From: a virus
IMG/VR virus record: IMGVR_UViG_3300004448_000470
Span: 1 to 39,370 of that record
Direction: 5' to 3' (one strand)
DNA: 39,370 bases
A model generated the notes under the pieces. That model saw only the letters and a list, made by a program, of their open reading frames with translations, did no database searches and was not told where the DNA came from. Shown here piece after piece: positions 5,176 to 39,134 of the stretch (position 1 is its first letter; every line of letters begins with the position of its first letter). The translations under genes were made by a program, and so were the position numbers.

Positions 5176-6348
5176 TTACACGTTAGTTTGTAAATATCCT
5201 TCGTATCCACGTTGCTTGTTCCATATATGCGCTTGTCCGGTTCTTTTGGCTTCGTATCCCATCATCTTATGCCAATCATCATTTTTGCATATTGATGGTA
5301 TAAATCTTACTTTTATTCCTCTATATTCGTTTACCATTTCTTTGTGTAGATGTCCGCAATGCGCTTCTCTAGACGTAGTTCTAGCAAACATTTCTGGTTG
5401 TTCTGTTGCCATTATGAGTGGCATATCTGCAGCTTTAACTTTATCTCCATGAGTAAATAAAATCATGTTAGTTCCATATTCATAGTACTTACGATGATCA
5501 TGAGAGTTATCTACATTGACTCTGTCATCATTTATAAAGTATGCATTTAGATACTCTCCTGAGTAAAACATTCTTTCGTAATCATGATTACCCTGTACTA
5601 CAACTACATCTATATCTGCATACTGTGCTAAATAGTCAATTGCTTTTACCATAAGTGCACAGTATCCTACAAATGTTTCTCTCCAATCTCCTGAATCAAA
5701 CTGCGGCGTACCTTTAGTTGTAGCTCTAGATAGTCCTTCAGAATTCATACCATCGTTACCGATAGGTAATATTATTTTTTCTATATCTAAACCTATAGCT
5801 TTTTTCATAAGGTCTTCTATAACATCCATGTACTCGTCTTCAGCCTCTTCTAAAGTCTGACCTGTGTATTTACCGTAATGAATATCAGGCAAAGATATTT
5901 CATACGCTACTGCGTCTGACTTTTCAGGTGTGCACTTTTTACATTTTTTTGGTCTGCCTGTTTTTACAGGACTATTTTCTTCTAACATTTGTATGATAGA
6001 ACCTTTAAGTCCAGTTAGTAAATTATCTTCGCTTTTAACTACTACTGAAAATCTAGACTCTCCTCCCATATTCTGCCAGTACTTTACTGACTTAATATCT
6101 TTTTTACTAATATTGTTATCTTTAACAAATGTGTCAAACTCTGTTGCATCTTGCGGATCAATGTTGTTTACATTTATGTTAGCTAACTGTGAGGCTTCAA
6201 ACCCCTCCATAAGCTCTATACGAGCTTCTCTAAGAGCTTCTTTACAAATCTCCTGACTGCACTCTAACTTATCAGCTAAACGCTTTGCGCCCTCTTTTAA
6301 ATAGCCTGGCTTTCTTACTAAAAATCCTTTAATTTCGTCTTTGGTCAT
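5176..6348 (-). CDS. Calcineurin-like metallophosphoesterase
   Basis: A 390-residue protein carrying the full set of metallophosphoesterase metal-binding motifs in order: DIH at residues 155-157, GND at 197-199, GNHDYER starting at 253, THGD at 299-302 and GHLH at 332-335. These bind a two-metal centre that hydrolyses phosphomono- or phosphodiesters. Ahead of the catalytic domain is a roughly 140-residue N-terminal part with an initial helical segment (FLVRKPGYLKEGAKRLADKL), which could be a nucleic-acid-binding helix-turn-helix, and a small CKKC motif at 136-139. The substrate cannot be read from sequence. The gene lies inside the virion region between a holin-like gene (ATGA overlap) and a ring-type gene, so it could be a late-acting nuclease or nucleotide-processing enzyme, or be packaged. 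Confidence 0.88.
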   Translation of the reverse strand: MTKDEIKGFLVRKPGYLKEGAKRLADKLECSQEICKEALREARIELMEGFEASQLANINVNNIDPQDATEFDTFVKDNNISKKDIKSVKYWQNMGGESRFSVVVKSEDNLLTGLKGSIIQMLEENSPVKTGRPKKCKKCTPEKSDAVAYEISLPDIHYGKYTGQTLEEAEDEYMDVIEDLMKKAIGLDIEKIILPIGNDGMNSEGLSRATTKGTPQFDSGDWRETFVGYCALMVKAIDYLAQYADIDVVVVQGNHDYERMFYSGEYLNAYFINDDRVNVDNSHDHRKYYEYGTNMILFTHGDKVKAADMPLIMATEQPEMFARTTSREAHCGHLHKEMVNEYRGIKVRFIPSICKNDDWHKMMGYEAKRTGQAHIWNKQRGYEGYLQTNV

Positions 6349-6731
6349 TTCTTTTTAATTTTTTCTATAGATCTTCCAGCAAAGTAAGCTCCATAAACGG
6401 TTATTAATAAAGTTTGGTATATTGGTATATATGCAGGAGCAATACTAAATCCTCCCGCGTTTCCGTCAAATATAGATATAACTACAAACATTGCTGTAAG
6501 AAATATACATATTAAAGGTCGTATGTTTTTTGACAACCAGTTGTCGGACTTCATGTCTGCTTCCCAACGTCGTGTCACTTGTTCCTGTGCTTGCGATTCT
6601 GCTTGCATAAGAACTTCTTCCATTTTACGCTTTGCTTCTAATCGTTCTTCTTCAGTAGTTGTAAGGCTGTCTATAACTCCTCCTACTTTTTCTATAACGT
6701 TTCCGCCTAATATTTTTAATAGTTTACTCAT
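6345..6731 (-). CDS. Holin-like membrane protein with N-terminal coiled coil
   Basis: The 128-residue protein has an amphipathic helical N-terminal half (residues about 10-65, with EERLEAKRKMEEVLMQAESQ), then a short WL-x-KNIRP segment, then hydrophobic stretches at about 72-90 and 100-120, and a basic C-terminus (RSIEKIKKK). This order, a helix, W-R-P entry and two or three membrane helices, matches the 3TM holin family known from gene transfer agents and many phages. Such proteins permeabilise the inner membrane so that endolysin can reach the cell wall. The stop overlaps the ATG of the metallophosphoesterase (ATGA). A second small membrane protein at 16234-16446 could be the actual holin, so the assignment is good by family and less sure by function. 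Confidence 0.7.
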   Translation of the reverse strand: MSKLLKILGGNVIEKVGGVIDSLTTTEEERLEAKRKMEEVLMQAESQAQEQVTRRWEADMKSDNWLSKNIRPLICIFLTAMFVVISIFDGNAGGFSIAPAYIPIYQTLLITVYGAYFAGRSIEKIKKK

Positions 6732-7115: not shown

Positions 7116-8768
7116 TTAACTTTCTATTATTTGTACTGCATCTACTGCTAAATCTGCTCCAAAACTTGTTGCATTTTGACTTACAAAATATATATAATAA
7201 TCTGTACCATTTCTATAGCTATTTAAGCTAATTGTTTTTTCTTGCCATACACTACTATTACTTGTAAACCCACTCCAATGTCTATTAGTAGAAGCAGTTC
7301 CTGTATGTAAATATTCTGCTAATTCTGTAGCATTACTATGATTTGCTGTAGTAGCTGTATGTATATATACAAATAAATCTCCCATATGCGTACCATATCC
7401 ATGTGCCCAAAATTTTAAATTTACATCATTAGTAGCATCAACCATACTATTACTATTAAATACAGGCATCCTTGCTACAAACGCATAAAGGTTTCTGCTA
7501 CTACTAGCTTCAGTATACATATACTTGTCTAAGTTAGTAGTTGTATAGTGGCTTCCATTTGATATATTTACTCCTCCTGTAGGTCCTGTACCACCTGACG
7601 GAGTTCCGTCTTGTCCTAGATTCCAACCTTTAACAGTTTTATTAGATGTCCTACCCCAATACGTACCATCTGTAGCGCTAGTACCATTAACCCAACTATT
7701 AGTTGGTGACCAGTTGCCTGTATTTTCAACCGCAGTTTCTCCTTCAAACTGATATGTTACACTATATAAAGGATACACTGCATCTACAAACGCTGCACCA
7801 CTAGTTAAAGTTCCGTTATTAGAATTACTAGAAGAGTCATATACAGTTGTTCCTGTGTTTTCTTCAAATTTCCAATAGCCTACTAAATTAGAACTATTGT
7901 CATAATTACCACTATTTACTAATAGATCCATAGGCTGTCCGCTATTATATACGGCAGTTATAGCATCAGCATCTAAATCAGTATCCCATATTGCAACATC
8001 ATTTAATTGGCCGTCTACAAACTGATTATAAAGATTACTTGTAGCCTGTTGTCTAATACCAATAAATATATCTTCCATAGTTGCAGTCATTACCTGCATG
8101 TCATTAATAGTTCCAGTACCATTGTGACTAGGATTAGTACTTTGGCCTTCTTGTCTAAGAACTCCATCTATGTACATTTTCATTTTACCATCATAATCAG
8201 TACCACCAACAGTTAATGTTTCAGTAGTGTCCCATGTTGCTGCTACATGATGCCATGCCCCATCTCCTATTATAGCCTCTGCATGAAACTCTGTATCTGA
8301 TGTAGCTGTACCATACGCACTAGCTATACGTTTTTTTGCTATTCCGTGATCTGCTGTTTGCGCTTTAGCATTGCACACATTACTTACAGTAGTGCCTGAC
8401 ACAGTGCTTCTATAAAAAAGTTCAAGAGCTAATGCAGAAGGAGATGCGCTAACTCTATAAAATTGAAGTTGTATAAAATCATTTGTATTACCTGCACTTG
8501 CATAATTATTTATTGCAATTACTGCGCTAGATGAAGAAGATGCATCTATCTTCATCCAAACAGAAATAGTACCTCTAGTTTTATTAATTGGGTCTGATGA
8601 TAATGCTATATCTATGTAGTCATTTGTACCGTCAAGTTCTACACCATACGCATCTGTATAAGTTTGAATAGTTTGACCAGATATATTAGCAATAGTAGCC
8701 TTAGTACGATCATCGACTTTGGCTACATTAGCTATTGCTACATCATCTATTTTACTTATTATTCCCAT
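7116..8768 (-). CDS. LamG/concanavalin-like adhesin, probable tail fibre component
   Basis: The 550-residue protein contains a LamG-type jelly-roll from about residue 45 to 300. Recognisable features are LDGTNDYIDIAL, TISVWMKID, DGAWHHVAATWD, MKMYIDGVL and VGYWKFEENTG, the usual signature of bacterial LamG/concanavalin A-like lectin domains. Such domains bind glycans. After about residue 335 follows a second beta-rich region resembling a MAM-like or other jelly-roll module (FEGETAVENTGNW and later YIYFVSQNATS). There is no signal peptide, which fits a virion part rather than a secreted protein. The gene overlaps the stop of the tail fibre gene by one base, so it probably provides host-surface glycan recognition at the end of the fibre. 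Confidence 0.8.
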   Translation of the reverse strand: MGIISKIDDVAIANVAKVDDRTKATIANISGQTIQTYTDAYGVELDGTNDYIDIALSSDPINKTRGTISVWMKIDASSSSSAVIAINNYASAGNTNDFIQLQFYRVSASPSALALELFYRSTVSGTTVSNVCNAKAQTADHGIAKKRIASAYGTATSDTEFHAEAIIGDGAWHHVAATWDTTETLTVGGTDYDGKMKMYIDGVLRQEGQSTNPSHNGTGTINDMQVMTATMEDIFIGIRQQATSNLYNQFVDGQLNDVAIWDTDLDADAITAVYNSGQPMDLLVNSGNYDNSSNLVGYWKFEENTGTTVYDSSSNSNNGTLTSGAAFVDAVYPLYSVTYQFEGETAVENTGNWSPTNSWVNGTSATDGTYWGRTSNKTVKGWNLGQDGTPSGGTGPTGGVNISNGSHYTTTNLDKYMYTEASSSRNLYAFVARMPVFNSNSMVDATNDVNLKFWAHGYGTHMGDLFVYIHTATTANHSNATELAEYLHTGTASTNRHWSGFTSNSSVWQEKTISLNSYRNGTDYYIYFVSQNATSFGADLAVDAVQIIES

Positions 8769-11254
8769 TATGCTATCTCTATCCAGTCCATTGACGGGTT
8801 AAAATACATTTGATCGTTATCTGTATCTAATGCGTATCCAATTACTCTTACTATATCTCCACTGCTTGATGGTGCAGCAATTGTAGCAACACCTGTAGTT
8901 GTAGATAAATATAGTATAGCACCCTTACCTTCTGTCCCTTCTATTTCTACGTGATGCGTAACCATTCCACGTACAAGCATTCCATCTGTACTAGGATCAG
9001 TTCCTATTGAAACTCCCAAAAATCCGTTACCTCCTAATGTAGTACTATCAGCATCTGCTAACTCCCAGTTACCCGTGCTTTTATAAAAATATATATATCC
9101 TGCAGTTGTACTACCGCCACTTGGACCGCTGCCAAAATATACTACATCTCCATCTGCGTCACCACTAGTACTTGTACTTGTAGGTGTAAGTTTTCTATGA
9201 AAATCACTAACTACATTATTTTTAAAATCTACAGAACCATCTGCTTCAATAGACATTCGTAATACATGAGGATTTACATCTGCATCACTATCTGCTGTTG
9301 AAGGACACGTGTAAAATCTCATATTACCGCCATTAGCTGTCCCTGTGCTTGCTCCTCCATAAAACGCTAATATACCGCCAGACTTATTTGTTCCTCCTCC
9401 TTCTGCTGCCCATATTTGTAAAGATCCTCCTCCACCATCACTGTGTGATCTTTTCTTTATATAAGAAGCGGTAAGATCGTCAGGGCCTATTAGTAAAGTA
9501 TCTGAATCATATGTTAACTCTGCTTCAGCTTGTATTGCTGATGTGCTATTTCCTGTTAACAATGAATTAGATGCAAAAGTAGTTGCACCTGTACCGCCAT
9601 TACCTACAGCTAAAGTACCTGTTACACCTATATCAGTAACAGCAGCACTACCATTAAAGTTAGCTGAGTCAGTCTCACTAAGAGTTACTTGCAAAGCTCT
9701 AGTAGTTGCTAAAGTTGTAGCAGTCGCTGCATTACCAGTTGTGCTTTGATTTAATGTAGGTATATTAGCAGCGTTAATAGTGGCTGTTGCACTTATATCT
9801 GTATCCCATCTGTAATGTTCTTCTTCCTCAAAATTTGCTAATGAATCGTGATTTATAGTTCCTTGTGTGGCAACTTGAACTACACCGCTGTTATTTACAA
9901 ATGCTGTACTACCCATTGTAAGGGTACCAGCTATAGTTGTTAAAGAGCTTGTTCCTTGACCAATAGTAACGTCTATTTCATCTTCTGCATCTCCATCTTC
10001 TATAACAATGCCATCTTGTAGCTCACCGTCGTGAGTAGCTACTCTTAATTTTATTTTACCCCCTTCTGTACCAGCACCAGTCTCTTCTTGAACTCCTACT
10101 ATTTGCCCATAAATTTGTGTAGCGTTTGAAGTGTCTTCACCGTTAAAAGATATTACACCTAGACTTCCACCGTCAGCAGGCGTATCATCCGCTCTTAGTT
10201 TTTGAAATATTAAATTACCTGAACTAGAATGATCAGATGTAGATTCAATAATTATATCAGGAGCCCCTAATCCACTATCAGTTATTTTTAAATTAGTGCC
10301 ATCGTAAGTAAGATTAGATTCTGCAATAATACCACTAGTACCGTTACCTGTAAGTAAAGCATTAGACGTTAAAGTCGTAACACCTGTACCTCCTTTAGAA
10401 ACTGGAACCGTATCTGACAGAGTTGATCCAGCAGCTGTGACTGTTATAGGAGTAGTACCATCAAAATCAACACCATTGATAGCCCTAGCTGTTTCCAATG
10501 CGGTTGCAGTTGCTGCATTACCTGTTGTATTTTCATTCTGTAAAGCTAATGTTCCTGTAGACGCAGGTAAAGTTACTGTTATATCAGAGCCTGGATTACC
10601 TCCCGACAATGTTGCTTCATGTACGTCATCTGATGTACCCTCAAACACAATATCATTTCCAAATATTGTTGCATCTCCTGTAGAAAAAATAGTACCAATT
10701 ATATTTAAGTTTCCACTTATAGTAGTGTCTCCGTCTGCGTCTACTTTAAGTCTAGGTGAAATCCCAAATCCATTAAGACTACTTCCTGCGGTTCCGTCAG
10801 CGGCTGTCCAAAATTCTATATCTCCACCGTCTCCAGTTCCTGTACCTTGGCCTCCATAAAACTTTAAAGCGCCTCCATTTTGGTTTGCGCCTGTTCCGTT
10901 AGCTCCTGCAATATTAAAATGACCGCCACCACCATCTCCATGGTCTTGGCGCTTGATAAATACACCGTTTGCATTATCATCACCTATACTAAGTGTATCA
11001 CTAGTAAATGATAATCCAGACTCAGAAGTAACCGTTCCGTCACCATCATCTGTTAGTAATTGATTAGCAGCACCGTCTACTCCTGCTCCGTGAAGATCTG
11101 TGACTCCGACACCACTGTCTTTAACTATTTTATTATTAGAATCTAGGCCAAGATTTCCCCCACTAGCTATAGTGCCAGTTTTTACACCTTCTAAATATAT
11201 AGAAGATCTAAATCTTGCAATAAGGTTTACGATATGTTGGCCTATAAATTTCAC
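8768..11254 (-). CDS. Repetitive tail fibre protein (828 aa)
   Basis: The product is rich in Gly, Thr, Ser, Ala and Asp, with phage-fibre phrases such as GNGGTGATTFASNSLLTGN and KGGTGVTTLTSNALLTGN. I have seen this type in many marine phage fibres and trimeric beta-structured proteins. It carries an internal duplication: a Gly-rich block DGGGG...GGALKFYGG...FW near residues 100-150 returns as DGGGG...GGILAFYGG...FY around residue 600. The C-terminal 130 residues look like a separate domain ending in WIEIA. The start is a GTG overlapping the upstream stop (TAGTG); there is no good ATG nearby. It is followed by the LamG adhesin gene, so the two probably build the receptor-binding device together. 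Confidence 0.85.
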   Translation of the reverse strand: MKFIGQHIVNLIARFRSSIYLEGVKTGTIASGGNLGLDSNNKIVKDSGVGVTDLHGAGVDGAANQLLTDDGDGTVTSESGLSFTSDTLSIGDDNANGVFIKRQDHGDGGGGHFNIAGANGTGANQNGGALKFYGGQGTGTGDGGDIEFWTAADGTAGSSLNGFGISPRLKVDADGDTTISGNLNIIGTIFSTGDATIFGNDIVFEGTSDDVHEATLSGGNPGSDITVTLPASTGTLALQNENTTGNAATATALETARAINGVDFDGTTPITVTAAGSTLSDTVPVSKGGTGVTTLTSNALLTGNGTSGIIAESNLTYDGTNLKITDSGLGAPDIIIESTSDHSSSGNLIFQKLRADDTPADGGSLGVISFNGEDTSNATQIYGQIVGVQEETGAGTEGGKIKLRVATHDGELQDGIVIEDGDAEDEIDVTIGQGTSSLTTIAGTLTMGSTAFVNNSGVVQVATQGTINHDSLANFEEEEHYRWDTDISATATINAANIPTLNQSTTGNAATATTLATTRALQVTLSETDSANFNGSAAVTDIGVTGTLAVGNGGTGATTFASNSLLTGNSTSAIQAEAELTYDSDTLLIGPDDLTASYIKKRSHSDGGGGSLQIWAAEGGGTNKSGGILAFYGGASTGTANGGNMRFYTCPSTADSDADVNPHVLRMSIEADGSVDFKNNVVSDFHRKLTPTSTSTSGDADGDVVYFGSGPSGGSTTAGYIYFYKSTGNWELADADSTTLGGNGFLGVSIGTDPSTDGMLVRGMVTHHVEIEGTEGKGAILYLSTTTGVATIAAPSSSGDIVRVIGYALDTDNDQMYFNPSMDWIEIA

Positions 11255-11721
11255 TATATAGCTCTAGGTATATCTGCAACTTTATAAGCGGTATCTCCGT
11301 CTTTATTTCTATACGCTTCTAAAACTTGCTTTCTGTTGTTTTTTTCTTTTAACGATATATGTATCCAAGCAAAGTCAAATTCATTAATCATTTGGTCAAA
11401 CTCTAAACCTGAATCTAAAATCCACTCATAGATAAGTATGTTCATCATCTTCCCCATCTGCCAAAACTGGATGTCCAATGCCTCACCTTTGCAGTGCTGC
11501 GAAGAACGGCTTCCACCAATAGCACGATTGAGTGACGGGTTGCGATAACCGCTACTGATCCGAATAGGACCAATAGAGTCACGCATAGGCTGTATAAGAT
11601 TAGATATAAGCCTTTGCATATTTTCCAAATGTTCTTTTGTCGGCTCATTACTTATTCCTAGTCTTGTTGCTGTATTACTTCGAGTTATCTCTGATAATAC
11701 AAAGTTTTTACTTAGTCTCAT
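11254..11721 (-). CDS. Peptidase M15 family endolysin (D-Ala-D-Ala carboxypeptidase-like)
   Basis: This 155-residue protein starts with LSKNFVLSEITRSNTA, a usual opening of M15A peptidases, and carries the family metal-site motifs: SGYR at 57-60, S-Q-H-x-x-G-x-A-x-D at 74-83 (His76, Asp83) and W-I-H at 119-121 (His121). M15 enzymes are zinc peptidases that cut peptidoglycan cross-links. In phages they act as endolysins or virion lysins. There is no signal peptide, so access to the wall would need a holin or delivery in a virion. The central part (DNA about 11435-11595) is visibly richer in G+C and in CGN arginine codons than both its ends, unlike most of the neighbourhood. It is coupled to the fibre gene by a TAGTG overlap. 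Confidence 0.88.
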   Translation of the reverse strand: MRLSKNFVLSEITRSNTATRLGISNEPTKEHLENMQRLISNLIQPMRDSIGPIRISSGYRNPSLNRAIGGSRSSQHCKGEALDIQFWQMGKMMNILIYEWILDSGLEFDQMINEFDFAWIHISLKEKNNRKQVLEAYRNKDGDTAYKVADIPRAI

Positions 11722-11724
11722 TTA

Positions 11725-12093
11725 TTATGATTTCGTGAATGTAGCAAATTCTACAATGCATGCACCTGTATCAGCTCTAAGATGTAAACCTGTACTTGGA
11801 GCTACACAAAAAAGTATAGCTTCTTGTGCGTGTAATCTAGCAAAAGGCGTCTCTCCTTGCGCGTCAGTTTTTAAGTATATTAAATTTGTAGAATCTATAT
11901 TTTTAACATATACGTACATGCTAGAGCCTACACTTGCCGCTACAACTACTGTATCAGCATCTGTAGCTACACTTTCTCTAGAAAGACCTGTAACAGGGTT
12001 TCCTACATTAAGAACATCTGAAATACTTAAGCTTAAAGCATTTGAAGATACCGTAGTAGAATTTATTGATAATGTTGTGTTTAATGTTGCCAT
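11725..12093 (-). CDS. Small putative virion protein (122 aa)
   Basis: A 122-residue product that begins ATLNTTLSINSTTVSSNALS and continues with alternating beta-prone segments (SMYVYVKNIDSTNLIYLKTD, FARLHAQEAILF, LHLRADTGACIVEFATFTKS). This resembles small beta-sandwich tail or capsid-decoration proteins found beside fibre genes in marine phages, but no named family is recognised. It has no signal peptide or membrane segment. It starts with ATGGC after an A-rich leader and is followed four bases later by the M15 endolysin gene. A virion protein is the most economical reading. Its position between lysis-type genes leaves a role in lysis possible. Confidence 0.55.
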   Translation of the reverse strand: MATLNTTLSINSTTVSSNALSLSISDVLNVGNPVTGLSRESVATDADTVVVAASVGSSMYVYVKNIDSTNLIYLKTDAQGETPFARLHAQEAILFCVAPSTGLHLRADTGACIVEFATFTKS

Positions 12094-12113: not shown

Positions 12114-12455
12114 TTAAAACGCTTCCATTACAATTTCGTCTATAGAATTTTGCACTTCTTTTTTAGTAGCTTCCATAGACATCATAATATTAGCTTGAAA
12201 TCTTTTTACTTCTTCATTATTGTTTAGTACTAATAATGTAGGTACTACTACAATTTTATACTCACTTGCCCATCTTGCGTCTGCAGTTATGTCAATTCTT
12301 TCTGTTTCACAGTCTGTTAGTTTTGGCAACCATTGCACTTCATTACTTTTATTAAAGCTAGCATTAAATTCTACAACAACTAACCCGCTTGAAAAGTCTT
12401 GACTATAAACAGTTGTACAAATAAACAAAATAACTGGTAAAAACAAATTTTTCAT
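12114..12455 (-). CDS. Secreted thioredoxin-fold protein without CxxC
   Basis: The 113-residue protein has a clear cleavable signal peptide (MKNLFLPVILFICTTVYSQ), ending in a Ser-Gln pair as is common in Bacteroidota. The mature part follows the thioredoxin order: a strand VVVEFNASFN, a helix, a second strand with IDITAD, then KIVVVPTLLVLNNNEEVKRF, which includes the cis-proline region (VVPT) and the usual beta hairpin. Where thioredoxins have the active-site WCxxC, this protein has NASFNKSN, so no redox cysteine pair is present. It would fold in the periplasm or be attached outside, but it cannot act as a normal oxidoreductase. It sits in the envelope cassette between a membrane coiled-coil protein and a small virion-like protein. 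A binding or chaperone role is inference. Confidence 0.7.
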   Translation of the reverse strand: MKNLFLPVILFICTTVYSQDFSSGLVVVEFNASFNKSNEVQWLPKLTDCETERIDITADARWASEYKIVVVPTLLVLNNNEEVKRFQANIMMSMEATKKEVQNSIDEIVMEAF

Positions 12456-12460
12456 AATTT

Positions 12461-12745
12461 TTATTTTAATTGGTCAATCTTATCCTCCATCCTCAGCATT
12501 TGTGTTTTAATTTCTGTTACGTCTTCTTGAGTAGACATAATTGTTTGTCGAATAAGTTGATCTTTCATATCATACTCCATCCGAGTAATTTCAGGGTCAG
12601 CAGGTAGAGGTAGTTTTTTAGCTTCTGCTATATCTGCTTGTAATACAAACCAACCACTAATAACTGCAGCCATTGCAAAAGCTATCCCTGCTAATGTTTT
12701 AACACTTATTTGTACTGATGTATCTTCGTTTAATTCTTTTGCCAT
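12461..12745 (-). CDS. Membrane-anchored coiled-coil protein (94 aa)
   Basis: The 94-residue protein has a short polar N-terminus, one hydrophobic segment at about residues 16-36 (LAGIAFAMAAVISGWFVL), a proline-containing linker (KKLPLPADPE), and then a long heptad-like helix ending MLRMEDKIDQLK. This is the layout of a single-pass inner-membrane protein with a periplasmic or cytoplasmic coiled coil, as in small phage lysis accessory proteins or i-spanins. Its place, between a secreted thioredoxin-fold protein and an outer-membrane barrel, supports an envelope-spanning role. I cannot decide topology or show spanin homology from sequence. It starts at an ATG two bases downstream of the barrel gene and ends just before the thioredoxin-fold gene. 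Confidence 0.6.
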   Translation of the reverse strand: MAKELNEDTSVQISVKTLAGIAFAMAAVISGWFVLQADIAEAKKLPLPADPEITRMEYDMKDQLIRQTIMSTQEDVTEIKTQMLRMEDKIDQLK

Positions 12746-12747
12746 TT

Positions 12748-13848
12748 TTAAAATATTACATAATTAAGTCCTACACTAAAGTTGTGCCATTGTCTGTTCC
12801 AATACTTGTTGTATCTACCTTCTATAAATACACCTAAGCTTTTATTAAATCTATATCCAAATATAAGTCCTGCTGAGTAATCTAACCACTGCCCGTTGTT
12901 AAACTTGTGATAAGAATATTTATTGTCTGTATCTATGTGATAAGGCATTATATTTCCCCAACTATGAAACCAAAAATCTTTTGTAAAATGATAGTAATCA
13001 AATCCTAATACTGCAGAATACTCTACTGTGTTAGATAGAGAATTTCTTTGATCTTCTACATAGTCATCTATTACTTGTGGTACAACAACCTCTTCCCATA
13101 CTTCTTGACTAGTTGCTACTACTTCTCCATTGGGTGCTGAATACTGTCCATCTAATGTTATATTGTATCCCTCTTGAAGTGCCAAGTATGTATAATGTAA
13201 TGTCCCATTGTCCAGCACCCAATCTGCCAGGGGGTCAAATCCGTATGGTTCTGCAAGACGCTGTACTGCACCTACATTAACAGATAGTTTACCTGCCTCA
13301 CCTATCTTCAAACGAAATCGCTCAGATGCTTCAAAATATTCAATATCAGCAAAACCATCTTGTAAATACTCTACTTTACTTACCCACTTATCTGCAACGT
13401 ATCTTACAAAGTGATGTTGGTTAGTATAGTTTATACCTAATCGTCTTACAAAATCAGCTTCGAACAAATATTCAAAACCATCAATTCTCCCAATTGTCGC
13501 GGCATCAGAATAAGAATTTTCTGTACCATTATAAAAAGTGTTGGCTCTGTTTTCATATCCAAATCGTTTAATTTTTCTAATACCTACAGAAAAAGTGTAG
13601 TCAAAAGGTGTTTCTATTGTTTGCTCTTCTAGCGCACCAGATGTTACAGACCATATCTGATCATCACCTAATGATGTACCACCATTAACTGCAGCATACA
13701 TCGTTGAGTATTTAAATATATTTTTTACTCCTTGCGCATTACAACTTGCAGATACTAAAGAAAATAGCACAATATAAAACACAGCCATAAAAAGCCAAAA
13801 AAACAAATAAGCTATGTCCGGTGTAATTTTTTTTAATATTTTCATCAT
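12748..13848 (-). CDS. Phage-encoded outer-membrane beta-barrel protein
   Basis: The 366-residue protein has a hydrophobic N-terminal segment (residues about 12-35, ending SASCNAQ) that looks like a long signal peptide. It then alternates amphipathic beta strands rich in aromatic residues and ends in LNYVIF, a terminal phenylalanine typical of barrels folded by BAM. Other strand-like pieces are FSVGIRKIKRFGYE, AVLGFDYYHFTKDFWF and GLIFGYRFNKSLGVFIEGRY. It is therefore probably an integral outer-membrane protein of about 16 strands. It overlaps the stop of the T9SS-cargo gene (ATGATGA, two possible ATGs at 13848 and 13845), so the two are made together. I do not recognise a named porin family. 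A lysis, exclusion or cargo-anchoring role is inference. Confidence 0.72.
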   Translation of the reverse strand: MMKILKKITPDIAYLFFWLFMAVFYIVLFSLVSASCNAQGVKNIFKYSTMYAAVNGGTSLGDDQIWSVTSGALEEQTIETPFDYTFSVGIRKIKRFGYENRANTFYNGTENSYSDAATIGRIDGFEYLFEADFVRRLGINYTNQHHFVRYVADKWVSKVEYLQDGFADIEYFEASERFRLKIGEAGKLSVNVGAVQRLAEPYGFDPLADWVLDNGTLHYTYLALQEGYNITLDGQYSAPNGEVVATSQEVWEEVVVPQVIDDYVEDQRNSLSNTVEYSAVLGFDYYHFTKDFWFHSWGNIMPYHIDTDNKYSYHKFNNGQWLDYSAGLIFGYRFNKSLGVFIEGRYNKYWNRQWHNFSVGLNYVIF

Positions 13849-16085
13849 TTCTTTAATACTTTTGTTGTATTTGTATTACCATCATATGTTACACTAAAAT
13901 TATATATACCAGAAGGTAGTAAGCTCACATCTAATTGATTTAATCCTTTTTGAGTATGACTTTCTCTAACTTGTATTACAAGCTTGCCTGATATATCATA
14001 TACTTCTATACCTACAGGACTGTTAGTTAATATATTTATTACATCTCCCATAGGATTAGGATACATAACTATATTATGTCCTCTAAGTAAATCTCTTGTA
14101 TCTAAAGGACTATCCCAAGAACAGCTCCAATATATTTGTTGACATTTGTCATCCCACTCATTATTGCAGCAATAAGGATCTATTGTAATAACCCAAGCAT
14201 AGCATGTGTCGTTTAACCAGTAAGGCACGCCAGGGCCTCCTATACAACCTGCATCATACAAACACTCTGCTTCTGTATTAGCAAAGACATCATAATTATA
14301 TGCATCACTATCCATACACCCTTCTACAACTGTCTGGCACTCATCATTTGCATTAGCTAAAGGATCGTAATTAAATGCTGTACTATCCATACAACCGTAT
14401 ATAAATGGTATACAACTGAAATCTTCTGTGTTTGCTTCTTCGTTGTAATTAAAAGCTTCAGGATCTGTACAGCCTAGCATAGTTATAAAGCAACTGCCAT
14501 TATCTACATTTGCCTGCGGATTATAGTTGTCAGCAACAGGATCCATACACCCAAAATACAAACAAGACTCATCTGCTGTATTAGCATTAGGATTATAGTT
14601 CCATGCTTCTTGATTCATACAACCAACTACTACGGCTACACAGCTACTGTCATCTACATTAGCAAGTGAATCATAATTAAATGCGAAGGGTGAGGTACAA
14701 CCTTCTACTATCTCAATGCAAGAACCATCGTCTGTGTTTGCGTTAAAGTTATAGTTTAAAGATTGTTCATCCAAACACCCGTACACTGTAGGCACACAAT
14801 AATCTCCGCAAAAAGGAAAACTAGTATATATTTGCCAAAAAGGAGGTGCATATGCTTTTAAAGCTCCTGCACCATTACCTGCAAATGGGTACATACCACC
14901 TTGCAAAGATATATTGCCTGCTGAGTTAATAAGTCTAAATGAGTTATGCATAGTCTGAAAAGCGACTTCTGCAGGAGGAGTTTGAGGACTAGCTATTTCA
15001 AAGTAATATACTTTAACAGGTTTATCTGTTTCTAGAACTATATTAAACTCTTGTGAATAAGAACCAGGTCCCATAGTATATGTGCCAAGAATACTATCTT
15101 CTTGTACTACACCTATATAACAATCACCCCATCCGTCACCACCATCATCTTCTATAATGAGAGTGTAATTACATGTAGGTATAATTTCATTTAATGTAGC
15201 GCTAGGATTAAAATTAAAAGCATTAGGATTAAGGCACCCTAACGTGTGTAAAGTTTCACATGAGCCATTATCAAAGTTTGCTTGTGGATTAAACTCTACA
15301 TATGTATTATTTGTACAGCCTTCTACTGCTGGTATATCACATTGCTCTAGCCATATAGGACCTGAATAAGCAGTGTTACCAAAAGAGGCAGAATCTAAAG
15401 ACCATAAAGTATCTAAGCTACCGCAAGGCTCTGCATCTCCAAGTATTATAAAATTACCATCTGTACCACCATTGTATAAAGAACCTTCTAAGCCATCCCC
15501 ATATGTATCACTTAGTATAAGTTCTACACCAGTTTCAGGCACACATAGATCATATATAATAGTTTGATTAGCTTGTTCGTAAGAATACTCACCGGCTATT
15601 ACACTTTCTACAGCCTCACCATTAGATATGTCTGTTAATATCCATCCTGTTTCTCCAGGAAATTGATCTAATGTTAGTTTAAGAATCATCTTAACTTCAC
15701 CGTCAGAACAACTTACACCCACACAACTGTTGTCATCAGCTTGTGCCCAAGGATTGTAGTTAGGAGCTTCAAGATTAGTACATCCAAACACAGGAAACTC
15801 GCAAGATCCGTCGTTAAAATTAGCTTCAGGTACATAGTTTAAAGCTAACATATCAGTGCACCCTGGCACAGTATCTATTGGTATAGGGCAGTCTCCATTA
15901 TCATAACCAAACTCTTCACAATTAAAGTCTATAATATTGCCATTCCATGAATACGCACTATTGTCGCAATACCCATCTCCTAGCCAATCTATAGGTGCTT
16001 CTACGCCATAACAATCTACAAATACGCTATCTTGAGAATTTGCTGATAGTGTTATTAAAAATAATATGTAAATTAATCTTTTCAT
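13845..16085 (-). CDS. Secreted Cys-repeat protein with type IX (T9SS) sorting domain
   Basis: From the ATG at 16085 the protein is 746 residues. It has a signal peptide (MKRLIYILFLITLSANSQ), an LNR/Notch-like module at about 25-66 (DWLGDGYCDNS... GYDNGDC) and two DGGDGWG/DTYGDGLEG-type beta domains (about 130-245 and 306-430). It also has eleven copies of a GCxDPxAxNYxPxA...C repeat (four at 75-305, seven in tandem at 436-608), a DPYCCNNEWDDKC module (about 613-655) and a C-terminal type A T9SS sorting domain at 672-746 (MYPNP, YDISGKLV, LPSGIYNFSV, ending TKVLKK). Such domains send cargo across the outer membrane and are cleaved or anchored there. A TTG four codons upstream is possible, but the ATG makes a cleaner signal peptide and a TAATG overlap. 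I know this architecture from host proteins; in a phage it is unusual. Confidence 0.85.
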   Translation of the reverse strand: MKRLIYILFLITLSANSQDSVFVDCYGVEAPIDWLGDGYCDNSAYSWNGNIIDFNCEEFGYDNGDCPIPIDTVPGCTDMLALNYVPEANFNDGSCEFPVFGCTNLEAPNYNPWAQADDNSCVGVSCSDGEVKMILKLTLDQFPGETGWILTDISNGEAVESVIAGEYSYEQANQTIIYDLCVPETGVELILSDTYGDGLEGSLYNGGTDGNFIILGDAEPCGSLDTLWSLDSASFGNTAYSGPIWLEQCDIPAVEGCTNNTYVEFNPQANFDNGSCETLHTLGCLNPNAFNFNPSATLNEIIPTCNYTLIIEDDGGDGWGDCYIGVVQEDSILGTYTMGPGSYSQEFNIVLETDKPVKVYYFEIASPQTPPAEVAFQTMHNSFRLINSAGNISLQGGMYPFAGNGAGALKAYAPPFWQIYTSFPFCGDYCVPTVYGCLDEQSLNYNFNANTDDGSCIEIVEGCTSPFAFNYDSLANVDDSSCVAVVVGCMNQEAWNYNPNANTADESCLYFGCMDPVADNYNPQANVDNGSCFITMLGCTDPEAFNYNEEANTEDFSCIPFIYGCMDSTAFNYDPLANANDECQTVVEGCMDSDAYNYDVFANTEAECLYDAGCIGGPGVPYWLNDTCYAWVITIDPYCCNNEWDDKCQQIYWSCSWDSPLDTRDLLRGHNIVMYPNPMGDVINILTNSPVGIEVYDISGKLVIQVRESHTQKGLNQLDVSLLPSGIYNFSVTYDGNTNTTKVLKK
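14262..14780 (-). repeat. Seven tandem GCxDPxAxNYxPxA cysteine repeats
   Basis: Within the T9SS-sorted protein, residues about 436-608 hold seven consecutive repeats of 20-21 residues, spaced by 4-6 residue linkers. Each begins Gly-Cys, has an Asn-Tyr (or Asn-Phe) near position 10 and closes with a Cys. The acidic turn before the final Cys (DDGSC, VDDSSC, VDNGSC and similar) suggests calcium binding plus one disulfide per unit, but this is inference. Four more copies lie at residues 75-95, 101-121, 256-276 and 283-305. Confidence 0.85.
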
Positions 16086-16237
16086 TAGCTTCCACAATTT
16101 TCACAATCTTCATTGTCTATTGAACACGCTTCAGGCTGTTCTTGCTCTTCTAAATCTACAATCCAAGAATCAAATGTATCTTTTTTTGATTCTTCTGCTC
16201 TTTTAATTGAGTCTTTAATGTATTCTTTGTCTATCAT
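16085..16237 (-). CDS. Small acidic protein with C-terminal CxxCGS (50 aa)
   Basis: From the ATG at 16237 the product is 50 residues: MIDKEYIKDSIKRAEESKKD, then a middle with SWIVDLEEQEQPEA and a C-terminus CSIDNEDCENCGS. An upstream TTG would lengthen it by 18 residues (through an Arg/Lys-rich stretch), but the ATG makes a clean ATGA overlap with the stop of the holin-like gene and is preferred. The helical start and three cysteines near the end are the only notable features; a CxxC pair could bind metal. The stop overlaps the ATG of the T9SS-cargo gene (TAATG), so production of the cargo may be coupled to it. No family is recognised. Confidence 0.6.
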   Translation of the reverse strand: MIDKEYIKDSIKRAEESKKDTFDSWIVDLEEQEQPEACSIDNEDCENCGS

Positions 16238-16446
16238 TTTTTTGCAAATTTTTCTGCACCGCTTATACCAAATGAACCGAGCACAACCCAAACAAATGAG
16301 TTGTACACGTATTCATTAATTACTAAATCTTGACCTATCCAACCTGTTACAAGATCAGCTACCATTATCATACACATTATAGCAAAAGCTATAAAGCCTA
16401 CAATAGCTTTCTCATTCCAGTTGTTGTCATTTTTAAATATTTCCAT
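16234..16446 (-). CDS. Small two-helix membrane protein, holin-like (70 aa)
   Basis: The 70-residue protein has a charged N-terminus (MEIFKNDNNWNEKA), a hydrophobic helix at about 15-34 (IVGFIAFAIMCMIMVADLVTG), a polar turn (GQDLVINEYVYN) and a second hydrophobic stretch at about 48-62 (SFVWVVLGSFGISGA), ending in a basic EKFAKK. Size, two helices and the basic tail fit a class II holin-like protein. It lies upstream of the T9SS-sorted protein and the other envelope genes and downstream of a coiled-coil gene, with overlaps on both sides (TAATG and ATGA). The other holin candidate at 6345-6731 means at least one of the two may serve a different membrane role. Confidence 0.65.
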   Translation of the reverse strand: MEIFKNDNNWNEKAIVGFIAFAIMCMIMVADLVTGWIGQDLVINEYVYNSFVWVVLGSFGISGAEKFAKK

Positions 16447-18401: not shown

Positions 18402-21400
18402 TTATCTAATGTTAGAGTTATTAACTGTTATAACCATACCATTTACAGTTATTACTGATTCTGAACCTGAAGTAGCTTGTGCTTCTTCTAAAGTTACAGG
18501 CAGTTGACATTGTCTGCAATAATTTTGCACAAAGTTAATAAATTTTCCTATATAATTTTTGTTATTTGGTTTATTTGGTGGTTCTTCGCAAATTTTCCAT
18601 CCTTCCCAACTAGTAGGAGCGTATTTATAATACTCAAGATCTTCTACTGGTACTCCATTATAAGATACATGATTCGTATTATACACTTTTATTTCAGAAA
18701 GGCTGATAGTATCAGAATCTGGTAAAGATGGAAGATATTTTAAAGTGTAATATCTTTCAACATTTGAATTTGCTTCAGCAGTAGAATAACTAAATCTATG
18801 TGTATCTCCTACATAATAAATTTGAGTATTTACAATATTTAAAGATAAGTGCTCTGTAATATGTCGTTTACGATCAGATTTATTTTTACAAGTTTTAACG
18901 CTTTCTAAATTAGGAGTAGAGCTGTCTGCACAATTATATATACAGTCTAAACCTTTTTTACTCATAAGATATTCTATCAATATAAGTTTCCAAGCATCTT
19001 TAGTTATACAATCAGATTTGCCTGTTATAGTATTCATAAATGCATTAGTACCTGCCGTACCTATACATCTTCTAAGAATGTCTATTTGCTGACTTGTCTT
19101 TTTAGGCATACAAAATGCAGGAGTATACAAAGTGTCCACGTACCCATATGTACATGGCTTACAAGGCACACCGCCAGCACCATTTTGAAGAGTTGGGTCT
19201 GAACAAGGTAATGCTGCATTTGGATTGTAGTTAGTTGCATCAGGATCTGTGCATCCATAATCTGCACACAAAGCTTGATTACATACTCCACCATTTGCAG
19301 GATCTATAGTAGAGTCATATGTACCAGAACTAGAATCACAGCACCCACAAGTACCTCTATTAGCACTTCTACCAAATGATGCATTAAGTATAAATGTGTT
19401 TTCAGAAAGATAGTCTCCGTTTTCATCTGCAGGAAATCCTTGTATAAAAGCAGCATCAGCAATTCCATCTGCTACAGTAATATTACTAATACCGCAATAA
19501 CATGAATCTGGAGATGGATTTACAGCATCTTCTAAATAAGGATATATTAAAAAACTATAAGTTCCTGCACCTATATTAGTTATTGTAAAACTAGTTCCTA
19601 AAGTAGGACTTTGAAATGGAAATACTTGTACTCCGTTGTCTGTACCTTGCTGTGTAATATAACCTCCTGCATTAATTACAGTTGATAAACCTGTAGCATC
19701 ATTAATACCTGCTAATTGAGTGTTAATACCTACGGCTGCTTCTAAAGTTGTAAAATCACCGCCAGTACCAGCTACTCTAAAAGCTACAGGACCTGTCCAA
19801 GTACTATTACTAATTGTAATTGTACCTGTGTTTGTGTCACTACCCGCACACGTATTAGGAGCTTCATAAGTTGTAATGCTCCAATTATCAAAGTCAGTAC
19901 AGTTAGTCGATGGCACTTCAAAATAACAAGTACTTGGACTATATTCTGTGTTAGCCCCTTGATTTACATCATAATTACATGCTGATGGATCTGTACATCC
20001 GTAAACTACATAAGTCTCACAACTACCATCATCTTCTGTTGCATTTGAACTATATTCTACAAAACTAGGATCTGTGCATCCTGAAGTGTGAGGAGTGATA
20101 CAAGCTGTACCAGCAGAACCAGTTGGAATTTGTTCAACGCCCGGACTATATATTTGGCTGTATTCAAACGCTACAGCACTATATTCTTGATATGTAGAAT
20201 TAATACATCCACAAGGGCTTCCCCACTCTCCTAAAACTTCTGAATACCATAATCCGTCAGGAGTTATTTGAGCCTGATCTCCACTAGGAGATTGATAACC
20301 TACACATAAACCATCATCATTTGTAGCACTTATATTATAGTTACAAGCTGCTGGGTCTGTACATCCAGGAGTTAATAATTCTTCTAATCCTACACATTCT
20401 GAACATAACGCCCCGCCACTAATACTGTTAAGAAAAGTGTTAGCGCCCCCACTATTTATAACATCTGAAATACTAAAAACTTTAGGGCCGTTAGTCATTA
20501 AATTAATAGATAGTGATTCTACAAATGAGTCATTAAAAAACACATCCATAGTCCAACCTGCATTTTGAATTCCTATTGACTCAAAAAGTGAAGAAGGAGT
20601 GCTTCCAAATACAAATGTTTCATTAAAATCATAATAACCTGCAGGTGGATCATTTGGATTTATAAGATATGCATTTGGAACTCCATTAATTACACTACTA
20701 TTAGTAGTGCTATATGTATTTGACTGCGAATTATTATTTACATCTAAAGTATAATAATCTATAGTATAAACAGCATTTCTTATTTCTAAATTAGGAAGAA
20801 TGCTAGTAGCTCCATAATGATTAACAGAAATATGAGCTAAAATGTGTCGAAAAAATAGACTATAATTTGTAAATGTCCAAGCTAGACCGCCAAACCCAGC
20901 AGCGATTGTTGGTAAAGTAGGTCCGTCTGGTTGAAGTACTGTAAAACTAAAACTAGCTTCAAACTCACAAGCATCCATGCTATCATCATTAATTGTAACT
21001 AAATTAAAATCAAATAACTCGCCAATAGTATCAGATATAGTACCATTCTCGTCATCAAGAGCTGGATAATTACATAAAGTATTGTTAGAAATAACAAGAT
21101 CAGAATTTGCTGATTCATCTCCAACATAGTTTGATGCAACAGGATCTGTACACCCTTCATATCTAAATTTAATAGTAACGTATTTATGACAAAGTTCAAT
21201 ATTGTGAGCAGTATTTGAATCTGAATAAGACACTCTATAAATATAGTGTCCTGGATTTAAATTTGAAAAAAGCCCACTTGAAAGAGTAGTCTGGTCGTTA
21301 TCTACATAAGCAGTAGTTGTTGGAGTTTGTTCTGAAAATCCTGCTGCCCAATTCGCAGCACCATTTACATTTAAAGAAAGATCATTAAAATTGCTTTCTG

Positions 21401-23066
21401 TAGCAAGACTGTTATATAAAGTTTTTCTTTCTACTTTTATTAGAGCTCCACTACCATCAAGTTGAGGAGAAACTGTAGAATTTCCTATTTCAAATGTGTA
21501 TTGTGAAGAATAACTATTATTAGTAATATCGTGAAATTCAACTCCTAAGCTCCAACTTCCTGTAGGAGTTAGGCCAACACTCTGAGTAAAACTTAATTGT
21601 TGAACCTTAAAAAGCTGCTGTGTAGAAATGGTTACATTAGTCTGACTGCCAATTGCTGAGTCATAGGCTTTTAGAACGTTTTGAGCATTTGGAAGATCCA
21701 TGTCTTCTGCTGCTACTAATCTACCATGAGAATCACACCATCTACACAAACCATTTTCTGTTGTTCCAGTATTTACATAGTTTATAGCACTAGATTCTTT
21801 ACAGTTTAAAGTAGCCTGAGCTTCTACATTTCCTACACCTGAAATTGGTAAAAATTGAGTTAAACCTGTAGAATCTTCAACTGTTAGTCCGTAACTAAAT
21901 GCAGGATCCGCAGTACCTGATAAACCTGACACTGCGTATGTAAGAGCTGCAGTGTTTTCTACTGTAGCACTACTACATGTTGCATCACCTGTCGCACATG
22001 TAAATGTTAAATCATAAGGCGGAGTTCCTCCTTCCCATGTCCATTGTATTTGTCCTCCATCAGAATCCGCTTCGCTAGGAACAGCTATAACTTCTCCTGA
22101 TGTAATACTAAAATTTTCATCTTCTACACTTGCATACGTGCAACAATCTATAAATTGTAAATTATGAGTATTTATTGCATTTTGTGCAGATGCTAGATCT
22201 CCAAAACTGGCACCACTAACATCGCATCCTTTTGGGTAAGGCGACGATAAATAATAATTTTCTGCATTAGGATCATTACATACTTTTATAGTAGGCTTTA
22301 CAGGATCAGGTTGAATTGAGTCATTTAAAAATACTACACTAACTACTGTTCCTCCAACCCCAGGATCTTTTATTTTATCATCTACAAAAGAATGTGCATC
22401 ATTAATATTTCCAATAGATCCTACAAAATTTAAGTTTTGCAATCCTGTTTTACCAGGAGATAAAATAAGATTTTTAACTTCTTCTTGTGTTAAAGATTCA
22501 GTAAGTAGTCTACTATTATTATATAATATAATGTCACTTGAGTTGTATATAATATAATCTTTATTATTAGAACCGTAATATAAAAAGTTTTTAACACCTG
22601 TATCAGGAACTTCTACGTACAAATTATAATTGTAAGGAGTGGTATCAGACGGCTCGTAAATAAAATTATTAGAATATTGAAAAGCATCTAAAATAAGACC
22701 GTCTTGATATATAGGAATTAAATTATTTAACTTAACATCAAGAACCAAGTTAATTGCTCCAGCATTAAAAAATATTCCAACTTTTAAATTTTGATTATTT
22801 AATAAAGTTGCTTTTGCAGGATCGTTAGGCTCATAAGGAATTCTAAGACCGTCTAATATATTATTAACTGAAAAATTTATTTCAGTTACTCTATTTTTAT
22901 TACTTGTAAAAGAAATTTCTTTTACTGGTTTTAGAGATGTTCCTGAAATACTAATAGCTACTGCTTCGTGCGCATTAGTTTGAGTGTTGTCTGTAGTTTC
23001 TATTCTTACACGAAGGGTATCATTCTGTGTTGTTATAAATATTCCGCCGTATTGATACGTAGCCAT
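18402..23066 (-). CDS. Giant Cys-repeat tail/adhesin protein (1554 aa)
   Basis: The largest complete gene in the window. The N-terminal ~220 residues are beta-rich without cysteine (TYQYGGIFITTQNDTLRVRI start) and probably attach to the virion. From about residue 260 on the protein alternates Ig-like or PKD-like beta domains with about eight GC-TDP-type repeats (GCTDPVASNY, GCTDPAACNY, GCTDPSFVEY, GCTDPSACNY, GCTDPDATNYNPNA and less perfect copies). The C-terminal ~280 residues carry CMPKKTSQQIDILRRCIG, a Cys-rich helical region and a final beta domain. There is no signal peptide and no T9SS domain, unlike the secreted protein at 13845-16085 that uses the same repeat family. A large receptor-binding or tail spike role is likely, by size, position and repeat type. 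Confidence 0.75.
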   Translation of the reverse strand: MATYQYGGIFITTQNDTLRVRIETTDNTQTNAHEAVAISISGTSLKPVKEISFTSNKNRVTEINFSVNNILDGLRIPYEPNDPAKATLLNNQNLKVGIFFNAGAINLVLDVKLNNLIPIYQDGLILDAFQYSNNFIYEPSDTTPYNYNLYVEVPDTGVKNFLYYGSNNKDYIIYNSSDIILYNNSRLLTESLTQEEVKNLILSPGKTGLQNLNFVGSIGNINDAHSFVDDKIKDPGVGGTVVSVVFLNDSIQPDPVKPTIKVCNDPNAENYYLSSPYPKGCDVSGASFGDLASAQNAINTHNLQFIDCCTYASVEDENFSITSGEVIAVPSEADSDGGQIQWTWEGGTPPYDLTFTCATGDATCSSATVENTAALTYAVSGLSGTADPAFSYGLTVEDSTGLTQFLPISGVGNVEAQATLNCKESSAINYVNTGTTENGLCRWCDSHGRLVAAEDMDLPNAQNVLKAYDSAIGSQTNVTISTQQLFKVQQLSFTQSVGLTPTGSWSLGVEFHDITNNSYSSQYTFEIGNSTVSPQLDGSGALIKVERKTLYNSLATESNFNDLSLNVNGAANWAAGFSEQTPTTTAYVDNDQTTLSSGLFSNLNPGHYIYRVSYSDSNTAHNIELCHKYVTIKFRYEGCTDPVASNYVGDESANSDLVISNNTLCNYPALDDENGTISDTIGELFDFNLVTINDDSMDACEFEASFSFTVLQPDGPTLPTIAAGFGGLAWTFTNYSLFFRHILAHISVNHYGATSILPNLEIRNAVYTIDYYTLDVNNNSQSNTYSTTNSSVINGVPNAYLINPNDPPAGYYDFNETFVFGSTPSSLFESIGIQNAGWTMDVFFNDSFVESLSINLMTNGPKVFSISDVINSGGANTFLNSISGGALCSECVGLEELLTPGCTDPAACNYNISATNDDGLCVGYQSPSGDQAQITPDGLWYSEVLGEWGSPCGCINSTYQEYSAVAFEYSQIYSPGVEQIPTGSAGTACITPHTSGCTDPSFVEYSSNATEDDGSCETYVVYGCTDPSACNYDVNQGANTEYSPSTCYFEVPSTNCTDFDNWSITTYEAPNTCAGSDTNTGTITISNSTWTGPVAFRVAGTGGDFTTLEAAVGINTQLAGINDATGLSTVINAGGYITQQGTDNGVQVFPFQSPTLGTSFTITNIGAGTYSFLIYPYLEDAVNPSPDSCYCGISNITVADGIADAAFIQGFPADENGDYLSENTFILNASFGRSANRGTCGCCDSSSGTYDSTIDPANGGVCNQALCADYGCTDPDATNYNPNAALPCSDPTLQNGAGGVPCKPCTYGYVDTLYTPAFCMPKKTSQQIDILRRCIGTAGTNAFMNTITGKSDCITKDAWKLILIEYLMSKKGLDCIYNCADSSTPNLESVKTCKNKSDRKRHITEHLSLNIVNTQIYYVGDTHRFSYSTAEANSNVERYYTLKYLPSLPDSDTISLSEIKVYNTNHVSYNGVPVEDLEYYKYAPTSWEGWKICEEPPNKPNNKNYIGKFINFVQNYCRQCQLPVTLEEAQATSGSESVITVNGMVITVNNSNIR
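19190..21160 (-). repeat. GCTDPxAxNY cysteine repeats dispersed in the giant protein
   Basis: Recurring Gly-Cys-Thr-Asp-Pro units of about 20-30 residues occur near DNA positions 19190-19260, 19925-20000, 20010-20080, 20290-20370 and 21070-21150, with less perfect ones to either side. The DNA word coding the repeat start (ggatctgt[a/g]ca[t/c]cc on the plus strand) is nearly the same each time, which points to recent duplication or strong codon constraint. Coordinates are approximate. Confidence 0.75.
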
Positions 23067-38626: not shown

Positions 38627-38818
38627 TTAAAACTTCTTAGAAACAGTCCCACCTGGCTTTTTAATAATACCGCCAAGGCCTTCATATTTAGATACATCTT
38701 GCATTTGTTCTCCACAATTGCAGATAGATTCTGACTTAACTATCTTTTCATTTACTATCTTCATAGTAAACGTAGTAACCTCTACTTTATTGTCGCACTT
38801 TTCGCAATACAATTCCAT
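38627..38818 (-). CDS. Small zinc-ribbon-like protein (63 aa)
   Basis: The 63-residue product starts MELYCEKCDNKVEVTTFTMK, giving a first CxxC pair at residues 5 and 8, and carries a second cysteine cluster ICNCGEQM near residue 33. Together they make a likely zinc-binding rubredoxin- or ribbon-like knuckle. The tail is flexible and basic (GGIIKKPGGTVSKKF). The ATG overlaps the stop of the GroES-like gene (TAATG), so the two are coupled. It may bind RNA or act in a phage-specific complex; no family name is justified. Confidence 0.6.
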   Translation of the reverse strand: MELYCEKCDNKVEVTTFTMKIVNEKIVKSESICNCGEQMQDVSKYEGLGGIIKKPGGTVSKKF

Positions 38819-39081
38819 TACATTATCCCTAAGATTTGTTGCTCCATTACCATTACATATTCTGTTTCTTCAATTTCTACCATAACACCTTCTCCTCTAG
38901 GGTCAATCATTATAGTGTCACCTTCTTTAGCAAACATGCAATTAGGCCCTACAGCTAATACTTTTAAAATGTTAGTTTTTAATTTATTAACAGTAGCGTC
39001 ATCTAGAATAATTCCTGACTCTGTTTTTCTTTTAGCTGGATTAGGTAGTACTACCCAATTTCCATTTGGTTTAAAGTTCAT
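38818..39081 (-). CDS. GroES-like co-chaperonin (Cpn10)
   Basis: From the ATG at 39081 the product is 87 residues: MNFKPNGNWVVLPNPAKRK, then TESGIILDDA, the mobile loop with the IIL tripeptide that docks to GroEL, followed by KVLAVGPNCMFAKEGDTIMI and ending MVMEQQILGIM. This is the full Cpn10 order (V-L strand, mobile loop, V-A-V-G-P, G-D strand, and the C-terminal E-Q-I-L). A GTG at 39102 would extend it by seven residues but falls inside the promoter -7 element, so the ATG is right. Phage GroES homologues replace or assist the host cap for folding capsid proteins. It is the first gene after a well-formed Bacteroidota promoter. Confidence 0.85.
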   Translation of the reverse strand: MNFKPNGNWVVLPNPAKRKTESGIILDDATVNKLKTNILKVLAVGPNCMFAKEGDTIMIDPRGEGVMVEIEETEYVMVMEQQILGIM

Positions 39082-39101
39082 TCTTTTAGTTTTTGTTTTC
39101 A

Positions 39102-39134
39102 CAAAGATATAAAAGATTTTCTTACAAATCCAAA
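39102..39134 (-). promoter_or_regulatory. Bacteroidota-type promoter before the GroES-like gene
   Basis: On the minus strand TTTG (39131-39134) and TATCTTTG (39102-39109) are separated by 21 bases, which fits the -33 TTTG / -7 TAnnTTTG promoter of Bacteroidota. A short A-rich leader (AAAACAAAAACTAAAAGA) leads into the ATG at 39081, with no Shine-Dalgarno site. It is the best promoter of the window and probably drives the block down to at least TerL. Confidence 0.7.

Follow-up and report, generated by a model that had tools for sequence, protein, structure and literature searches.

A cysteine-rich type IX secretion cargo and a predicted outer-membrane barrel, exchanged between crAss-like phages as one cassette, probably remodel the infected-cell surface

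Lysis proteins and small lipoproteins are usually regarded as the means by which phages affect the envelope of their host. Llp of phage T5, a small lipoprotein facing the periplasm, is a phage receptor-blocking protein at the outer membrane. The type IX secretion system (T9SS) is specific to Bacteroidota. In 2020 a phage-encoded T9SS cargo was reported for Cryophage, and effects on superinfection were suggested (PMC7468147); a 2019 report on BACON-repeat phages describes T9SS-sorting-domain proteins in cluster 2 (PMC6949934). Phage T9SS cargo as such is thus already known, and the initial annotation of the DNA studied here went too far in calling this use of the system little known. We analyzed a cargo gene in IMG/VR record IMGVR_UViG_3300004448_000470, whose full 39,370 bases are referred to as the window. 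Downstream of the cargo gene follow, in this order, genes for a barrel-like protein, for two small proteins termed h94 and h113, and for an M15 endolysin (Table 1). Viruses that swap this module of cargo and barrel probably use it to remodel the surface of their infected host.

The cargo carries a genuine type A T9SS sorting domain. Its extreme C-terminus (residues 674–746) matches TIGR04183 with 46.6 bits (E = 2.4e-12) and PF18962 with 49.2 bits, compared with profile cut-offs of 23 and 27 bits, respectively, and a six-frame search of the record yielded no other TIGR04183 match. An AlphaFold2 model contains seven strands at residues 672–745 with a predicted local distance difference test score (pLDDT) mostly between 75 and 90, which is also about the range of the C-terminal domain (CTD) overall. 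This agrees with the 3+4 β-sandwich described for T9SS CTDs (PMC11285876). Foldseek matched the predicted CTD to cargo domains from T9SS complexes, i.e. NucA (8glk, TMt 0.77), RemA (8gl6) and RemZ (8gl8), as well as to the CTD of mirolase (8qb1). A profile search of PDB sequences with the sorting domain resulted in 8glk and 8glj.

At the other end, MKRLIYILFLITLSANS, followed by QDS, looks like a signal peptide of the Sec type in which position +1 is Gln, as judged by sequence and rule. Across the family, Gln directly after Ala, Ser, Gly or Cys was found near the signal-peptide end in 34 of 36 cargos, in all 49 barrel proteins and in 48 of 50 thioredoxin-like proteins (h113), compared with a background of 19%. 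These counts, for which a simple hydrophobicity and motif rule was employed instead of SignalP, fit the prediction of the Q-rule for signal-peptide cleavage in Bacteroidetes (PMC5837995). A pattern search located exactly 11 GC..NY..C repeats in the cargo, which contains 39 Cys in total. The initial annotation was accordingly right about the sorting domain, the signal peptide and the eleven cysteine repeats. Its LNR-like module, however, is not borne out, as residues 19–74 gave no Pfam match, to LNR/Notch or otherwise, even at E ≤ 10. The Pfam search of cargo and window likewise reported no BACON domain.

The number of repeats varies from 9 to 25 per cargo across the relatives (pattern search). 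At loci L020, L024, L026, L027, L043 and L049 the contigs often terminate within the repeat region of the cargo. This suggests that assemblies break at the repeats and that counts of repeat copies are too low. Repeats of the same type also occur in a putative tail protein of the window (positions 18402–23066; 1554 residues, 48 Cys), and the two proteins match in blastp at 1e-7 (5e-25 for the counterpart at locus L003). The N-terminus of the putative tail protein (MATYQYGG...) has no signal peptide.

One scan of viral contigs revealed relatives of the cargo at 57 other IMG/VR loci with 34–86% identity, most of them with matching neighbors. TIGR04183 was matched by 28 of 30 aligned homologues and in 27 of 30 phage contigs (above the cut-off in 26), nearly always once per contig, from which we conclude that the cargo family is a stable phage gene. 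In the window the ATG of the cargo shares one nucleotide with the TAA stop of the upstream open reading frame (ORF), and its stop shares four (ATGA) with the barrel gene. The latter overlap is present at 33 of 46 loci. When the search was started from the barrel, 73 of 78 further loci also held a cargo with sorting domain; the remaining five are cut by contig ends less than 1 kb from the barrel. Within the cargo, median ratios of nonsynonymous to synonymous substitutions (dN/dS, Nei-Gojobori estimates) were 0.11 in the body, 0.16 in the sorting domain and 0.03 in the segment that precedes it; the barrel gave 0.10. All parts of the cassette that were tested are under purifying selection. Two statements of the initial annotation are borne out here, namely the overlaps on both sides and the position of a phage gene in a lysis region, with M15 endolysin and holin nearby; the gene is also conserved and under selection. 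What the initial annotation missed is that the cargo belongs to a mobile cassette which also encodes a phage protein resembling an outer-membrane barrel and other exported proteins.

Two side observations concern individual relatives. Loci L007 and L044 lie on one 96-kb contig (IMGVR_UViG_3300030116_004105) with a cargo cassette near each end; their sequences differ, and the contig represents either two cassettes or an assembly artefact. The cargos of L046 (7608–9812), L047, L048 and L056 end in DLLGRP..NKLLLYIYDDGSVERKIIIK and not in the TIGR04183 domain. A similar tail was observed at L084, a locus in a bacterial metagenome-assembled genome (MAG), and this ending may be a sorting signal in a shortened or alternative form.

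The window is a fragment of a crAss-like phage (Crassvirales). Its genes of crAss type code for a tail ring protein (PF24228, 187.5 bits) as well as for the major capsid protein, portal and TerL (phrog_11589, 288.9; phrog_6547, 425; phrog_6681, 457). Among the matches listed, the portal is approximately 22–36% identical mostly to proteins of Crassvirales and Flavobacterium phages. In pairwise comparisons with ten other cassette carriers, TerL of the window is only 23–26% identical, whereas the barrel reaches 78–84% and the M15 endolysin 70–77%. The other carriers fall into TerL groups with about 47–58% identity, and their barrels are 81–90% identical, higher for near-identical pairs. Locus L046 is the converse case, with backbone genes 56–66% identical to those of the window but a barrel of only 51%. 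The major capsid protein family of the window was not detected in 22 of 30 contigs; two contigs without it have another structural family (phrog_13704) and crAss portals. Lineages are intermingled in the barrel tree. Since the barrel is far more conserved than TerL, the sequence comparison indicates that the cassette moves between Crassvirales lineages and is exchanged by them.

Neither TIGR04183 nor the barrel was found in ten reference crAss-like genomes, a set including the Crassvirales phages phi14:2, crAss001 and DAC15 and the Fipvunavirus Fpv1 (for the barrel, a positive control was lacking in this search). Among 50,697 phage records there were no homologues of cargo or barrel, and the sorting domain gave only two weak, partial matches in huge metagenomic phages. 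When bacterial genomes were searched with the cargo, the best 80 matches were mostly repeat regions, which are common in marine Flavobacteriales. Only two of these 80 (L065 and L066) match over most of the cargo length, and their contigs, apparent phage contigs within MAGs, also carry the barrel, h94 and h113. The barrel was present in one of 296 Flavobacteriales genomes, the one holding L065. Both MAGs encode SprA (about 2384 bits); binning is weak evidence of a host, and the presence of SprA lends weak support to T9SS-bearing hosts for the cassette phages.

The barrel protein ends in a C-terminal Phe, and its AlphaFold2 model (pLDDT 68.7) comprises about 12 long strands. Comparison of the model with porins resulted in VIA Z values of up to 11.5 (Omp33, OmpG, CymA). 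The value for the PorV chain (8gl6_F) was 8.9 and thus not above that of unrelated barrels. The sequence had no match among solved structures. Because the Foldseek matches are generic porins, we assigned no specific function.

Table 1. Annotated features of the cassette and its surroundings in the window.
Feature	Position	Strand	Basis
T9SS cargo gene, 746 aa, Cys-rich, ATG at 16085	13845..16085	(-)	ORF and profile matches
Sec signal peptide MKRLIYILFLITLSANS, predicted cleavage before Q18, Bacteroidota Q-rule	16035..16085	(-)	sequence and family statistics
N-terminal Cys/Asp-rich module (initially 'LNR-like')	15888..16013	(-)	sequence
GC..NY..C repeats 1-2	15723..15863	(-)	pattern search
GC..NY..C repeats 3-4	15171..15320	(-)	pattern search
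GC..NY..C repeats 5-11	14262..14780	(-)	pattern search
T9SS type A C-terminal sorting domain, predicted β-sandwich	13848..14066	(-)	TIGR04183, PF18962
Predicted outer-membrane β-barrel, 365-366 aa, signal peptide	12748..13848	(-)	predicted fold and linkage
h94, 94 aa, membrane-anchored, helical, probably coiled-coil tail	12461..12745	(-)	sequence
h113, 113 aa, secreted, thioredoxin-fold-like, CxxC absent	12114..12455	(-)	sequence
122-aa protein, in only some cassettes	11725..12093	(-)	neighborhood comparison
M15 peptidase endolysin	11254..11721	(-)	domain match
Holin with three transmembrane segments, GTA_holin_3TM	6345..6731	(-)	PF11351, 32.5 bits
Small membrane protein, 70 aa, holin-like by anatomy	16234..16446	(-)	sequence
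49-50 aa ORF between small membrane protein and cargo	16085..16234	(-)	sequence

The remaining cassette proteins are small. h94 has one N-terminal transmembrane segment and a long helix, and resembles an i-spanin by anatomy alone; it gave no Pfam match above the cut-off, and no dedicated search was aimed at a lipoprotein (o-spanin). h113 has a signal peptide and matches PF00085 with 20.5 bits in the window and 24.8 bits in L046 (cut-off 23.5). Its CxxC motif is replaced while the VPT cis-Pro loop is kept, and CxxC was present at this position in no aligned homologue that was inspected. The cargo gene is surrounded by tail-fiber-like proteins, the endolysin and the holin, the latter often immediately after M15 in the relatives, and in many of these the 70-residue membrane protein is also located upstream of the cargo. 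Between endolysin and holin the window encodes a 550-residue protein (7116–8768) with lectin-like Laminin_G_3 and MAM domains, a possible receptor-binding or glycan-binding protein. A GroES-like co-chaperonin is encoded at 38818–39102 (PF00166, 35.2 bits). Promoter-like matches in the window were not above those in shuffled sequences; there were six terminator-like matches compared with a shuffle mean of 2.5, and they do not mark the cargo boundaries.

Computation shows the sorting domain and signal peptides, the coupling of the cargo gene to the barrel gene by overlap and linkage, the purifying selection and the exchange of the cassette; export itself, its timing, the partnership and the function are deduced. 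We propose the following course of events. Synthesis of the cargo probably takes place late in the infection. It would be exported by Sec, with signal peptidase I cutting before Gln18, and its Cys-rich repeats would presumably be disulfide-bonded in the periplasm. The CTD would then pass it to the SprA/PorV translocon of the host and thereby to the cell surface. The order of Sec and T9SS export follows established knowledge of type A cargo, and we regard export by the host T9SS as very probable. The constant partnership with the phage barrel suggests that the two proteins act jointly at the outer membrane. In the last step the pair would alter the surface of the infected cell and lead to superinfection exclusion, or keep progeny from being lost to infected cells and debris.

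For this reading as a whole, in which cargo and barrel remodel the infected-cell surface and most likely block further adsorption, we estimate a probability of roughly 0.45. Exclusion as the specific function is a tentative assignment. We favor it because the T9SS-exported adhesins SprB and RemA of Flavobacteriia may be phage receptors (PMC13288928, where a paper on T5 exclusion is also cited), and because cargo and putative tail protein of the same phage have repeats in common, as expected if both touch the same target. More doubtful still is a two-gene display module, swapped among Crassvirales, in which the barrel anchors or presents the T9SS cargo late in infection and competing phages are excluded.

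Several observations weigh against surface remodeling. The GC..NY..C repeats are widespread among the proteins of Flavobacteriales, so that their sharing with the tail protein is weak evidence. The homologues at L046, L047, L048 and L056 keep the cargo body and the barrel with a different C-terminal tail; the module can thus do without a type A domain. Confidence in the barrel model is medium (pLDDT 68.7), export is read from the sequence, and host assignment by MAG binning is weak. Finally, endolysin and holin adjoin the cassette, which would fit a role in lysis equally well.

This proximity makes lysis the main rival, albeit an unlikely one. Once holin and endolysin have acted, cargo, barrel, h94 and the thioredoxin-like protein would jointly open or weaken the outer membrane, in place of classical spanins. 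The cassette does end in the M15 endolysin, often together with the three-transmembrane holin, it transfers between phages as a unit in the manner of lysis genes, and the layout of h94 is that of an i-spanin. However, a T9SS driven by the proton motive force needs time to pass a 39-Cys protein, and this export should precede lysis. In addition, no Pfam profile matches h94 above its cut-off, and a repeat number ranging from 9 to 25 is more in keeping with a surface for binding than with machinery for lysis.

Competition for the T9SS is considerably less probable. An abundant late cargo would occupy the system and lower the host's surface adhesins, some of which are phage receptors or gliding proteins, and the passenger would be of minor importance. 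The authentic sorting domain and the possible receptor role of the T9SS cargos SprB and RemA (PMC13288928) are compatible with this, but a plain decoy needs neither a strongly selected passenger (dN/dS 0.11) nor a conserved architecture. We consider it slightly less probable again that the cargo is a secreted or surface adhesin which changes how infected cells or debris aggregate or attach and thus aids phage spread. Although the passenger is rich in Cys and in repeats of variable number, of a kind common in Flavobacteriales proteins, Pfam recognized no binding domain, and an adhesin role alone leaves the constant barrel partner unexplained. That the cargo is a virion protein instead of a cell-surface protein, as its repeats shared with the putative tail protein might indicate, is very improbable in view of its Sec signal peptide and T9SS domain, given that the tail protein has no signal peptide. 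We reject the reading that the gene has no function for the phage and is either a recent capture from the host or a chimera of the assembly: related repeats do occur in Flavobacteriales genomes, but there are 57 independent loci, most of them with conserved neighbors, the best 80 bacterial matches are mostly repeats except for the apparent phage contigs of L065 and L066, the barrel occurs in one of 296 Flavobacteriales genomes (that of L065), and the cargo is under purifying selection. The sorting-domain profile is above its cut-off and the 57 loci make a chimera unnecessary, which excludes both errors that the initial annotation had allowed for and upholds its statement that the gene is not a stray host insertion.

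Many environmental crAss-like phages thus appear to use the T9SS together with a predicted outer-membrane protein of their own, in a conserved module that is exchanged. If surface remodeling is true, it reveals how uncultured crAss-like phages change the infected cell surface, and the module could serve as a marker for phages of T9SS-bearing Flavobacteriales. The display module, if true, would be a viral hijacking of the T9SS with the virus's own surface receptor for the cargo.

Compared with the Bacteroidota type A cargos NucA, RemA, RemZ and mirolase (8glk, 8gl6, 8gl8, 8qb1), the CTD profile and the predicted fold are the same, whereas passenger and gene context are phage-specific. If exclusion is true, the likeness to T5 Llp consists in a phage protein at the outer membrane of the infected cell that blocks further adsorption. 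In place of a small lipoprotein the window has a large, predicted T9SS-exported protein together with a barrel, and exclusion is here a deduction. The phages phi14:2, crAss001, DAC15 and Fpv1 have portal genes related to that of the window, but TIGR04183 and the barrel were not found in them. The BACON-repeat phages, which are gut lineages, likewise have T9SS-sorting-domain proteins, encoded near head genes; their gene neighborhood differs, and the accessible text of that report does not mention a barrel partner (PMC6949934). Cryophage also has phage genes with type A sorting domains, and its cargo varies among related phages; there, an endoglucanase, a GH39 protein and a PA14 protein serve as cargos and are encoded in variable islands (PMC7468147). 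The window, in contrast, has a single Cys-repeat cargo coupled to a barrel-like protein in a conserved crAss-like cassette. Judged by the open literature searched, the novelty lies in the cassette, in the barrel partner encoded by the phage and in the exchange between Crassvirales lineages.

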